Origin: Chthonomonas sp.
Lineage (GTDB): Bacteria > Armatimonadota > Fimbriimonadia > Fimbriimonadales > Fimbriimonadaceae
Length of the DNA stretch: 64,000 bases
Direction: 5' to 3'
Assembly (NCBI GenBank): GCA_016788115.1
Contig: JAEURR010000006.1
Coordinates: forward strand, 186,001-250,000
Positions 26,826 through 31,204 of this stretch are shown piece after piece (positions within the stretch are counted from its first letter, which is position 1; every line of letters starts with the position of its first letter). The notes under the pieces are model-generated. The model did not search any database. It was not told where the DNA came from and saw only the letters and a program-made list of their open reading frames with translations. The position numbers and the translations under genes are program-made.

Positions 26826-26892
26826 AGACGAGCTTGTTTGGGGCAAGCTTCCCTCTGACCCGCACGGCAACCTCCACCAGGAACCTTTGACC

Positions 26893-27318
26893 ATGGCTAA
26901 GAAAGTTTCATCCATTATTAAGCTCAACATCGCTGCCGGTAAGGGCACCCCAGCTCCTCCCGTCGGTCCCGCGCTCGGTCAGGCGGGCATCAACATGATG
27001 GAGTTCTTGAAGAAGTTCAACGACATGACGGCCCCGCAGATGGGCTTCGTCCTGCCGGTTGAAATCACCGTCTTCGAGGATCGCTCCTACGCGTTCGTGG
27101 TCAAGCAGCCGCTCGCGAGCGACTTGGTCAAGCGCGCCGCTGGCATCGAGAAGGGTGCGGCCAATCCGCTGAAGGATCGCGCGGGCGTTCTCAGTAAGGA
27201 GAAGCTGCGCGAAGTCGCCAAGGCCAAGATGAAGGACCTCAATACCGAGGACGAAGAGATGGCCATGCGCATCATCGCGGGCACCGCTCGGTCCATGGGC
27301 GTCAAGGTCGAACTCTAA
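26893..27318 (+). CDS. rplK: 50S ribosomal protein L11
   Basis: 141 residues. IIKLNIAAGKGTPAPPVGPALGQAGINMMEF is replaced here by its own conserved start SSIIKLNIAAGKGTPAPP, then GPALGQAGIN and TARSMGVKVEL at the end. L11 binds 23S rRNA in the GTPase centre and is needed for RelA activation. The ATG at 26893 has AGGAAC at about 8 nt; a TTG 6 nt earlier is not preferred. The gene is alone, with its own promoter and terminator; the usual rplA, rplJ and rplL partners are not adjacent. Confidence 0.97.
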   Translation: MAKKVSSIIKLNIAAGKGTPAPPVGPALGQAGINMMEFLKKFNDMTAPQMGFVLPVEITVFEDRSYAFVVKQPLASDLVKRAAGIEKGAANPLKDRAGVLSKEKLREVAKAKMKDLNTEDEEMAMRIIAGTARSMGVKVEL

Positions 27319-27332
27319 CAACTCACACCCCA

Positions 27333-27371
27333 AAATGAGGACCGACGGGTTTGGCCCATCGGTCCTCATTT
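27333..27371 (+). terminator. Rho-independent terminator of rplK
   Basis: A 13-bp stem (AAATGAGGACCGA with its complement) extended by inner GGG/CCC pairs, followed by TTTCT. Confidence 0.9.
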
Positions 27372-27424
27372 CTATTGGTACGCAGAAACAATCACCTTTC
27401 CGATGCGTCCTACATATGGACTGA

Positions 27425-28000
27425 ATGCAGACTTTTCGCTCATTGTTGACCGGTACAATTCTCCTTCTTTCGGTTGCCGCTTCGGCTGGCCCTGACACCG
27501 AAGGGATTGCCGCTGCGCAATCTGCGGCGGATGCCATTCGCGAAGCCGCAGGAGCAGACGCTGCGTTCTTGACCGCCGAGATGCTCCGAACTAAGTTCGA
27601 CCCGGACAACCTCGCGACGCTCATGAAGTTTCCAACGGAAGAGATCGCGGTGGTCAACTTGACGGGCGCACAAATCCGGCAGGCTTTGGAGCGTAGCGTA
27701 TCACTCTATCCGACCCCCAGCGACAGCTTTCTTCAGGTCTCAAATCTGGAGATCACGTTCCGTCCAAAGGCAGAGCCCGACGCGCGGATTGCCTCGGTCA
27801 CGCTCAGCGGGAACCGGATGGAGGATGGTCGCACTTACACTGTCGCCATGCCCGTGACGCTCGCGCGCGGCAGCCAAGGCTACTTCAAGGTCTGGGATAA
27901 GGAACGAATCAAAACCGTACTCAGTGGCGTGACGCTTGAAAAGGTGCTCGCCGACCGCCCGGCGAAGAATATGGCCTCTCGCTGGCGAACCGCTTCGTAA
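27425..28000 (+). CDS. Stand-alone 5'-nucleotidase C-terminal domain protein
   Basis: 191 residues. A signal peptide (LLTGTILLLSVAASA) is followed by the substrate-recognition domain that normally forms the C-terminal half of UshA-type 5'-nucleotidases: LTGAQIRQALERSVS, DSFLQVSNLEITF, then the conserved TVAMPVTLARGSQGYF. The N-terminal metallophosphatase domain is absent, and there is a good start and signal peptide, so this is not a simple truncation. It may bind nucleotides outside the membrane; catalysis is not expected. Confidence 0.75.
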   Translation: MQTFRSLLTGTILLLSVAASAGPDTEGIAAAQSAADAIREAAGADAAFLTAEMLRTKFDPDNLATLMKFPTEEIAVVNLTGAQIRQALERSVSLYPTPSDSFLQVSNLEITFRPKAEPDARIASVTLSGNRMEDGRTYTVAMPVTLARGSQGYFKVWDKERIKTVLSGVTLEKVLADRPAKNMASRWRTAS

Positions 28001-28030: not shown

Positions 28031-28708
28031 ATGATCACTCCCTACGATTGGCAGGAGGGCATCGGACACCGAGCCGAGTACGTGCAAAGCCGCCTCGAAG
28101 GTGGCTCGCCTGTGTTAGCGGTCAGCATCCCCGAAGGAGTCCTCACATTTACGGTGCGCCGTCAGGCAAAGAAGATCTTCGAGATTTACGATCGCTTGCT
28201 TATGGCTGGCCTAGGACAGCAGTCCGACGTCGAGTCGCTGCGCGTGGCCGCTATCGACTTCGCTCACCAAGAGGGGTACCAGCGGAGCGAGGCGGACGTG
28301 ACGGTCCAGCGTGTGGTCGGCGTTCTGAGCACACCCCTCAAGCGCGCATTCTCGGACTTCAACTCTTCCCCATTCGTGCTCAAGGCCATGTTCGCCGAGG
28401 TCGGCGCGAAACCTGAGAGCGATCTATTCTTCGTCCTGGACTTTGATGGGGACTACCACGAGCGGCAGCAATGGGCCGTACTCTCAGGTGAACCAGGCCT
28501 GACTGAGACCTTGCGCGATGGGCTGGCCACGCTGTACGACACCAAACCCTCGCTGGACACCGCGATGAACACCCTCAAGGACCTCTGGGCCGTTGCGATG
28601 TCCGAGGATGGCGGGACCACGTATGCGGAACTCACGCGCGAACTGACCTCAGAGGCAGTTCTTTTGGAGCGCAACGATTCGCGCCAGACCCGCTTCCGGG
28701 TTGTTTAG
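28031..28708 (+). CDS. Orphan 20S proteasome alpha-subunit-like protein
   Basis: 225 residues. The sequence follows actinobacterial PrcA: ITPYDWQEGIGHRAEYVQSRLE, a strand VLAVSIPEGVLTFTV, KKIFEIYDRLLMAGLGQQSDVESLR, DFAHQEGYQRSEADVTVQRV and AEVGAKPESDLFFVLDFDG. Alpha subunits form the outer rings of the proteasome and lack the catalytic N-terminal Thr. No prcB, pup, pafA, dop or mpa gene is nearby. The ATG at 28031 is preceded by TAGAGT 6 nt upstream and is preferred over the GTG at 28025. The last 4 nt overlap the convergent Wzz-like gene. Confidence 0.75.
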   Translation: MITPYDWQEGIGHRAEYVQSRLEGGSPVLAVSIPEGVLTFTVRRQAKKIFEIYDRLLMAGLGQQSDVESLRVAAIDFAHQEGYQRSEADVTVQRVVGVLSTPLKRAFSDFNSSPFVLKAMFAEVGAKPESDLFFVLDFDGDYHERQQWAVLSGEPGLTETLRDGLATLYDTKPSLDTAMNTLKDLWAVAMSEDGGTTYAELTRELTSEAVLLERNDSRQTRFRVV

Positions 28709-30045
28709 TCTTCGCTGCTGAACAGGTTCGGTGCGAGCTGGATCGCGACCGCGATCAGAAAGAAGAGCGCTCCAAATACTGCCTTGCGCGGAGCGATCGG
28801 GTCGTCTTCGACAAGCGGCTCATCAACGACTTCGAAGCGGCTGGCATCACGATCTTCGGCCAGTTTTGCCTTGCCCAGCTCGATCTCTAAAGTCTCTCGC
28901 TTCTTGAGCGCTGCGTTGAACTCGGCCTGAGCGCTGGCGAGCCGTGAGGTCTTGGACGGCAGCTGTCGCGCGATCCCTTCGTAGCTCGACATGATCTTCT
29001 CGTACTCCGTAATCGAGACGTCCAGCGCCTGGAGCTGAGATTCGAGACGGAAGACTTCGGGCTGAACTCCGGCGCTCGCTTCTCGGGCACGATTCGCGAT
29101 GACTCGGGCGGCGAGTTGCTCGGCGGCCTCAACCTTCTGTTTGACCACCGCGTACTCGGGGCTGCTCTCCGCGAACTGCTTGGCCACGTCCGCGAGCTCG
29201 ATGCGCCGCGCTTCGATCTGCCCGACAAGCGTGTTGACACTATCTTTGCCCGCGGCTGCGCCGTCGGGAGCAAGTGCGGTCAGGTTCTCGGGATACTGCG
29301 CCTTAGGGTTCAGGAGCTTCGCAAACTTCTCCTTAACGAGGGCGAGCTGACGCCGCGCCGATGCCTGCGCAACCCGAGTCTCACCAAGCTTCCCTTTCAC
29401 GAGGAAATAGGCTCGCTGAAACTCCAGAGTGTCGCTGACCGTCGCGCCGGCAAGGTTCTTCTCAAACTTCTCCCTCGCGGCCTCGACTTCCATGATGCTG
29501 TCGGCGTAACGCTTCTCGACTTGGATCCGGTTCCCTTTGCTCACGTTGATCGTGAGCTCCTCGGCACGTTTCTGAAGGTGGGTGTACAGAGCCGAGACGA
29601 TGGACTTGCACAACTCGGGCTTATCGACGTTCGCCTCGATCACTAGGAAACCGGTCTTCTCGGTTCGGACACTGACCGAGCCCTCCAGCTTCTTGCGCGC
29701 TTTCAGCTCGTTCATTCCCCAATAGTCTGCGAGCTTGAGTTTGCGCACGACATCGAGGAAACAAGTATTGCTGGTCAGGATCCCGGTCGCAGTTTGAGGC
29801 CCAGACGCGACGAGCGGCGAAACCAATGCACCGCCCATCGAGCTGATGGTCCCTCCATCCGGATCGGCCCCATTCGCGCCGGTCAGGGCCGAAATGCCGC
29901 CAGCAGGCTTTGCCTGAGCCGCTGGGAAGTACAGGGTCATCTGGCTGCTATAGGTCTTGGGCAGCATCGTGGCTCCGAGGTAACCGATGAGGCCCACGCC
30001 AAGCGCAATCAGACCAATACGCGTTATTCGCTTGATCGAAATCAT
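28705..30045 (-). CDS. Wzz/chain-length-determinant-like membrane protein
   Basis: 446 residues. N-terminal transmembrane segment (about 8-29, IGLIALGVGLIGYLGATML), the characteristic KTYSSQMTLYFP after it, a large periplasmic coiled-coil region (about 150-400) and a C-terminal transmembrane segment (about 420-440, AVFGALFFLIAVAIQLAPNLF) preceded by PIAPRKA. This is the polysaccharide co-polymerase layout that regulates the length or export of exopolysaccharides. No kinase domain is fused. The lack of polysaccharide genes nearby leaves the partner unknown. Confidence 0.8.
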   Translation of the reverse strand: MISIKRITRIGLIALGVGLIGYLGATMLPKTYSSQMTLYFPAAQAKPAGGISALTGANGADPDGGTISSMGGALVSPLVASGPQTATGILTSNTCFLDVVRKLKLADYWGMNELKARKKLEGSVSVRTEKTGFLVIEANVDKPELCKSIVSALYTHLQKRAEELTINVSKGNRIQVEKRYADSIMEVEAAREKFEKNLAGATVSDTLEFQRAYFLVKGKLGETRVAQASARRQLALVKEKFAKLLNPKAQYPENLTALAPDGAAAGKDSVNTLVGQIEARRIELADVAKQFAESSPEYAVVKQKVEAAEQLAARVIANRAREASAGVQPEVFRLESQLQALDVSITEYEKIMSSYEGIARQLPSKTSRLASAQAEFNAALKKRETLEIELGKAKLAEDRDASRFEVVDEPLVEDDPIAPRKAVFGALFFLIAVAIQLAPNLFSSED

Positions 30046-30084: not shown

Positions 30085-30657
30085 TTAGACCCGCACCTTC
30101 TCGCGGGACTCGATTACTGCCTGCGGTGAGAGTGGCGCCGCGCCGTCCACGCTGCTCTCGAGCTCGGACATTCCGGCTTCGACGGAGCGGATCGCTTTGC
30201 CCAGGACATTCTCCACGTGCTTGAGAACGTGGTAGGAATAATCATCGGCCTCGCGGCGTCGAGACGTGGCATCCTTACCCGCAGAGTTGCGGATCTCTTC
30301 GGCCTGTGATTTCGCGAGCTTCAGGATCTCGCTCTCGGCGAGGAGACGGGTCTGCTCAAGTTTGGCCTGTTCGATGATGAGGTCGGCTTCTTGTTTTGCT
30401 TCGTCAAGAAGTCTGGAGGCATCGCCCTTCGCGTTGTCGAGCAGCCCATCGGCGTCCTGTCGCGCAGTCTTGACAATCTGCTCCGACTCCCGGGTCACGC
30501 TTGCCGCTTGCTTAACTTCCTGAGGCAAACTTGCACGGATCTTTGCGATCTGCATTGCGATCTCGTCAGTATTGACCTTCCAGTACAGGGGGCCAAGGTG
30601 CCTCGGCTGATCGACAGCCAAGTCGTGCAATTGCTCAAGCATGCGAAGTATGTCCAA
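30085..30657 (-). CDS. DivIVA/ATPase-stalk-like coiled-coil protein with TTG start
   Basis: 190 residues. The start is decided by GGAGG (30664-30668) placed 6 nt before a TTG at 30657; the frame is open upstream but without a ribosome site, and it would overlap coaD. After a short N-terminal region (ILRMLEQLHDLAV) comes a long Glu/Ala/Arg-rich coiled coil (about 50-145) resembling F-type ATPase b or V-type E subunits and DivIVA. It is a soluble filament-like protein of unknown role. It is co-directional with coaD 64 nt upstream, an arrangement I recall from related genomes. Confidence 0.75.
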   Translation of the reverse strand: MDILRMLEQLHDLAVDQPRHLGPLYWKVNTDEIAMQIAKIRASLPQEVKQAASVTRESEQIVKTARQDADGLLDNAKGDASRLLDEAKQEADLIIEQAKLEQTRLLAESEILKLAKSQAEEIRNSAGKDATSRRREADDYSYHVLKHVENVLGKAIRSVEAGMSELESSVDGAAPLSPQAVIESREKVRV

Positions 30658-30721
30658 CTGAATCCTCCAGGATATCTTAAAGACGGAATGAATCCCTATT
30701 TTGACACACTGGGGAGCACGC

Positions 30722-31204
30722 TCATCGCGAAGCGGCCCCTGCAATGATCGGAACGAGCTCGGGAGACACAAATCCCGCGAAGTCTCCGCCGTGCCGGGCG
30801 ATATCACGCACGATGCTACTGCTGAGAAAACTGTGCTCCCACTTGGTCATGAGGAACACCGTCTCAATCTCCGGGGCAAGTCGGCGGTTGGCCATCGCGA
30901 TCTGAAACTCGTAGTCGAAATCGGCGGTCGCTCGCAGACCTCGTACGATCGAGCCGGCACCTTGCGACCGGGCGTACTCAACGAGCAGCCCGTCGAACGA
31001 GTCGATGACGACGTTGGGCCATTGTTTGCATACCAGTTGCAGCGCCTGGACACGCTCCTCGAAGCCGAGGAAGGGCTCTTGCTTGGTAGTGTTGACACCG
31101 ACCGCGACCACGACCTCGTCGTAGAGTCTGCTTGCGCGCTCGACGATGTCCAAGTGCCCGAGGGTGGGCGGGTCAAAGGAGCCGGGATAGATCGCTCGCC
31201 TCAT
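30722..31204 (-). CDS. coaD: Phosphopantetheine adenylyltransferase
   Basis: 160 residues, the standard length. The nucleotidyltransferase motif YPGSFDPPTLGHLDIVERA with HxGH-type TLGH, GSIVRGLRATADFDYEFQIAMAN and the C-terminal SSSIVRDIARHGGD. It converts 4'-phosphopantetheine and ATP to dephospho-CoA, the penultimate step in CoA synthesis; the pantothenate genes panB and panC are elsewhere in this window. The start ATG is preceded by a GAGG-type site. Confidence 0.97.
   Translation of the reverse strand: MRRAIYPGSFDPPTLGHLDIVERASRLYDEVVVAVGVNTTKQEPFLGFEERVQALQLVCKQWPNVVIDSFDGLLVEYARSQGAGSIVRGLRATADFDYEFQIAMANRRLAPEIETVFLMTKWEHSFLSSSIVRDIARHGGDFAGFVSPELVPIIAGAASR

Follow-up and report, generated by a model that had tools for sequence, protein, structure and literature searches.

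A proteasome alpha-subunit gene that stands alone in a Chthonomonas locus is part of a dispersed UBact-proteasome system

The gene prcA of a Chthonomonas genome encodes one scattered piece of a complete proteasome system, although its locus gives the appearance of an orphan. It occupies positions 28031..28708 (+ strand, 225 aa) of the window, by which we mean the whole 64,000-nucleotide stretch of DNA that was analysed. The original prediction had proposed a rare orphan ring protein or a repurposed alpha subunit. That proposal fails: the genome that carries prcA also encodes PrcB, the tag UBact, Dop, a second member of the Pup-ligase family and Mpa. The proteasome encoded here is a dispersed UBact-proteasome. 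We put at roughly 93% the probability that prcA specifies the alpha subunit of a 20S proteasome acting with PrcB, an Mpa/ARC ATPase and UBact. The homology, the predicted fold, all of the partners, their co-occurrence, a single split in the PrcA tree and intact active-site residues in PrcB were each observed. UBact is a relative of Pup found in non-actinobacterial proteasome systems; a one-cluster gene layout is a usual trait of such systems, not a defining one.

The reading frame is a real one, and its product is an alpha subunit of a bacterial proteasome that has diverged in sequence. The frame runs unbroken from an ATG at 28031 to a stop at 28708, and this ATG is the conserved start: the N-terminus reads M-x-T/S-P-Y/F-D-W/F-Q-E in relatives. 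The likeness to PrcA goes far beyond chance. The product matches the bacterial PrcA profile TIGR03691 with 75.9 bits (E 3.1e-21), a score below the strict cut-off of 139 bits, as are those of all 52 PrcA proteins found in the order; it passes PF00227 (28.3 bits, cut-off 22.4); and phmmer against the PDB returns the Rhodococcus chain 1q5q_A (E 1.5e-12) and the Mycobacterium chain 3h6f_A (E 2.8e-11). The likeness, which the prediction had traced over the first 170 residues, reaches to about residue 195-222.

The Ntn-hydrolase fold on which the prediction depended is also there. An AlphaFold model built from an alignment of 54 relatives has a mean pLDDT of 94.6 and a pTM of 0.90, and its top Foldseek matches are Mycobacterium and Rhodococcus proteasome chains (E 6e-15, TM 0.77-0.83). 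Ahead of the first strand, residues 4-22 form an N-terminal helix of the alpha type. The N-terminus, M-I-T-P-Y-D-W-Q, has no catalytic Thr1. The PrcA-like identity originally proposed is thus borne out by profile, PDB chains and model alike, in a protein that has diverged to 20-24% identity with Mycobacterium PrcA in structure alignment. K48, E51, Y53 and D54 are invariant in the 54 relatives. Lys48 aligns with a lysine of Mycobacterium PrcA that we take to be Lys52, in the pocket for activator tails.

Where are the partners? The original prediction saw no prcB, pup, pafA, dop or mpa nearby, and within the window, which lies on contig C6, this holds: no second PF00227 gene, PF03136 gene, UBact gene or full-length pup_AAA ATPase gene was reported. 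It does not hold for the genome, an assembly of 2.4 Mb in nine contigs with a completeness of 97%, in which the partners lie on two other contigs, C5 and C8. The distant prcB that the prediction had named as the mark of a dispersed proteasome stands at C5:380791-381438 (TIGR03690, E 4e-35). Directly upstream of it are UBact (58 aa, C5:380576-380707), which passes the cut-offs of both PF20513 (73 bits) and NCBIfam NF033388 (71.6 bits), and dop (C5:379120-380415; Dop 298 bits vs PafA 238 bits). These three genes form a cluster; prcA, mpa and pafA stand apart from it. The mpa gene (C5:169172-170683) scores 462 bits with pup_AAA, below the cut-off of 504.75, as does Mpa in every member of the order. 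The second of the two PF03136 genes in the genome lies at C8:149641-151011 and favours PafA by only about 2 bits (291.5 vs 289.4 for Dop); we call it pafA on this margin and because outgroup operons likewise hold two copies.

The tag itself is UBact in place of classical Pup. PF05639 found no match in the genome at E <= 1, and a scan near dop and pafA found no ORF with a Pup-like GGQ or GGE end. UBact here ends in RQRSGQ, that is, with an SGQ end. At locus L011 (9534-9710, +) the 58-aa UBact with the RQRSGQ end sits between dop and prcB. The last residue in relatives is either Gln or Glu, and both forms occur inside one family. In PrcB, Gly-1, Thr1, Asp17, Lys33 and Gly47 are kept, with T1, D17, K33 and G47 invariant wherever the residue is present.

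The trio of prcA, prcB and UBact is complete in 50/61 genomes of the order and wholly absent from 5/61; the 6/61 with a partial set are mostly fragmented or incomplete assemblies. Mpa was found in 58/61. This is the pattern expected of one working system. One contig labelled as a Methanoregulaceae archaeon (L153, JADZEW010000018.1) has a prcA almost the same as the one in a Fimbriimonadaceae genome (L152); the bin is probably mislabelled or contaminated.

A prcA that is alone in its locus amid a different neighbourhood would also fit an orphan alpha ring that has stopped pairing with PrcB and serves some separate function, such as that of a chaperone-like or scaffolding ring. We consider this orphan reading highly unlikely. 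Within the family to which the window belongs, 32/33 genomes having prcA also have prcB, the present one among them, and the catalytic residues of the prcB product are intact. PrcA retains the lysine aligned with the ATPase-tail pocket of its Mycobacterium counterpart. Moreover, an orphaned PrcA would leave PrcB with no alpha partner, because prcA and prcB are the only two PF00227 genes in the genome.

The arrangement of the genes does need explaining. In three families of the order (f2, f3 and f5), prcA follows prcB at a distance of 33-84 bp in 19/19 genomes that carry the pair. In f1, the family of the window, prcA is detached, more than 18 kb away or on another contig, in 32/32 such genomes. 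This family is apparently the Fimbriimonadaceae, judging from the titles of the detached loci: those with names are labelled Fimbriimonadaceae, Fimbriimonas, Chthonomonas or Armatimonadetes. Outgroups (among them other Armatimonadota and the candidate phyla Bipolaricaulota and Fraserbacteria) have mpa-dop-UBact-prcB-prcA-pafA in one array, the last gene being recognised as a Pup-ligase homologue and called pafA by its position. On a maximum-likelihood tree of PrcA, the attached or detached state requires a single change (branch support 100/97), against a mean of 16.3 when the states are shuffled. Because one change suffices, we conclude that prcA moved out of the operon once and was then retained together with its partners. 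On this history, prcA left while dop-UBact-prcB remained together, and in many members of the family it now follows rplK and a gene with a 5'-nucleotidase domain. In the literature that we searched, whose coverage excludes the original UBact reports, we found no paper on the detached layout.

That PrcA is instead an HslV- or Anbu-type peptidase, another Ntn-hydrolase ring and a reading which PF00227 alone cannot tell from ours, is contradicted by the sequence and has a negligible chance of being right: bacterial PrcA tops the profile matches, among which no HslV model appears, the protein has the helix at 4-22 and no N-terminal catalytic threonine, its closest folds are chains of bacterial proteasomes, and in sister families prcA comes directly after prcB. 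Equally remote is the notion that the separation of prcA from prcB reflects broken or misassembled contigs, or a foreign contig in the bin; the assembly has nine contigs, and 24/32 pairs in the family lie on different ones, but in the other 8 genomes both genes share a contig at distances of 18 kb to 919 kb, several of these being single-contig chromosomes that contradict an artefact outright (G009, G012, G020, G034), and the relocated locus has conserved neighbours.

What are these neighbours? A gene with a 5'-nucleotidase C-terminal domain (27425..28000, +; PF02872, E 7.6e-24) precedes prcA by 30 bp and is read in the same direction. Before it lies rplK, for ribosomal protein uL11 (26887..27318, +), read from its translation and from synteny in relatives; it is a conserved neighbour of the relocated prcA at roughly half of the loci in the family. 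Between rplK and this pair of genes stands a terminator-like hairpin, gaggaccgacgggtttggcccatcggtcctcattt (27335..27373, +), seen directly in the sequence; it is long and followed by a short T-rich stretch, and a consensus terminator scan did not list it. Since the hairpin cuts off rplK and the gap to prcA is only 30 bp, the 5'-nucleotidase-domain gene and prcA probably form one transcription unit. Among 20 loci with a detached prcA, the 5'-nucleotidase-domain gene lies a short way ahead of it in the same orientation in 11, and rplK does so in 8; by hand count from the locus table, roughly half of the named loci of the detached type show this layout. Several relatives have a gene for a secreted protein, by eye resembling M28/glutaminyl-cyclase-type peptidases, between the 5'-nucleotidase-domain gene and prcA (L163 5042-5971; L172 4980-5906; L170 4982-5959). 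Convergent to prcA in the window are genes for a Wzz-like coiled-coil membrane protein (28705-30045, -; by eye) and a DivIVA-like protein (30085-30807, -), found beside prcA only in the two relatives of the same genus.

How would the dispersed UBact-proteasome work? A standard 20S proteasome to which Mpa feeds UBact-tagged substrates is the best reading because the active-site residues of PrcB and Lys48 of PrcA are kept. From these parts we infer assembly, gating, tagging and degradation. The barrel would be built as alpha7-beta7-beta7-alpha7, with seven copies of PrcA in each outer ring, gating the entry pore and supplying pockets for the ATPase tails, and PrcB would provide the cutting threonine sites. 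A PafA-type ligase would conjugate UBact to proteins, a Dop-type enzyme would process or remove it, and Mpa would thread the tagged proteins into the barrel. Some points count against this reading: PrcA is diverged and under its equivalog cut-off, six genomes have partial sets, and Mpa lacks the GQYL tail.

Mycobacterial Mpa needs its C-terminal GQYL for gate opening (PMC8142254), and ATPases of Pup systems that have lost the proteasome are without the C-terminal interaction motif (PMC3511204). Among 45 distinct Mpa sequences from proteasome-bearing genomes, a hand count gives an end of the form -[VI][VIL] in 42 and GQYL in none. Tails often read R-x-x-V-I, neither GQYL nor HbYX (L013 9121-10767, -; L069-L097; L187-L217). 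Families and phyla alike conserve the -[VI][VIL] end, which is therefore older than the relocation of prcA. It may be an alternative docking tail. Tentatively, and with the odds against it, both oddities can be read together: the tyrosine-free end would dock the ATPase on the alpha ring as a gate-opening key unlike HbYX or GQYL, and prcA of the Fimbriimonadaceae would be under separate transcriptional control. If so, this family would produce its alpha subunits independently of its beta subunits.

The only unusual traits of the system are these ATPase tails and the lineage-wide break-up of the operon. A proteasome operon can come apart throughout an entire bacterial family whose genomes nevertheless retain the parts as a set. 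There is a warning here as well: an orphan should not be called from one window alone, because Pup models miss UBact and the equivalog cut-offs for PrcA and PrcB exclude this lineage.

Compared with the actinobacterial Pup-proteasome of Mycobacterium and Rhodococcus, the system shares the PrcA fold with its invariant pocket-aligned lysine, PrcB Thr1/Asp17/Lys33, the Dop/PafA pair and an Mpa-type ATPase. It differs in the low structure-aligned identity of PrcA given above, in a tag ending RQRSG[QE] where Pup ends GG[QE], in Mpa ending -[VI][VIL] where the mycobacterial protein ends GQYL, and in genes that are not in a single locus. With the UBact-proteasome systems described for Gram-negative phyla and candidate phyla it shares the whole gene set (UBact of PF20513/NF033388, PrcA, PrcB, Mpa, Dop and PafA); UBact scores above curated cut-offs, and outgroup relatives carry the genes as one operon. 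In the window's family, by contrast, prcA, mpa and pafA are scattered and only dop, UBact and prcB stay side by side.
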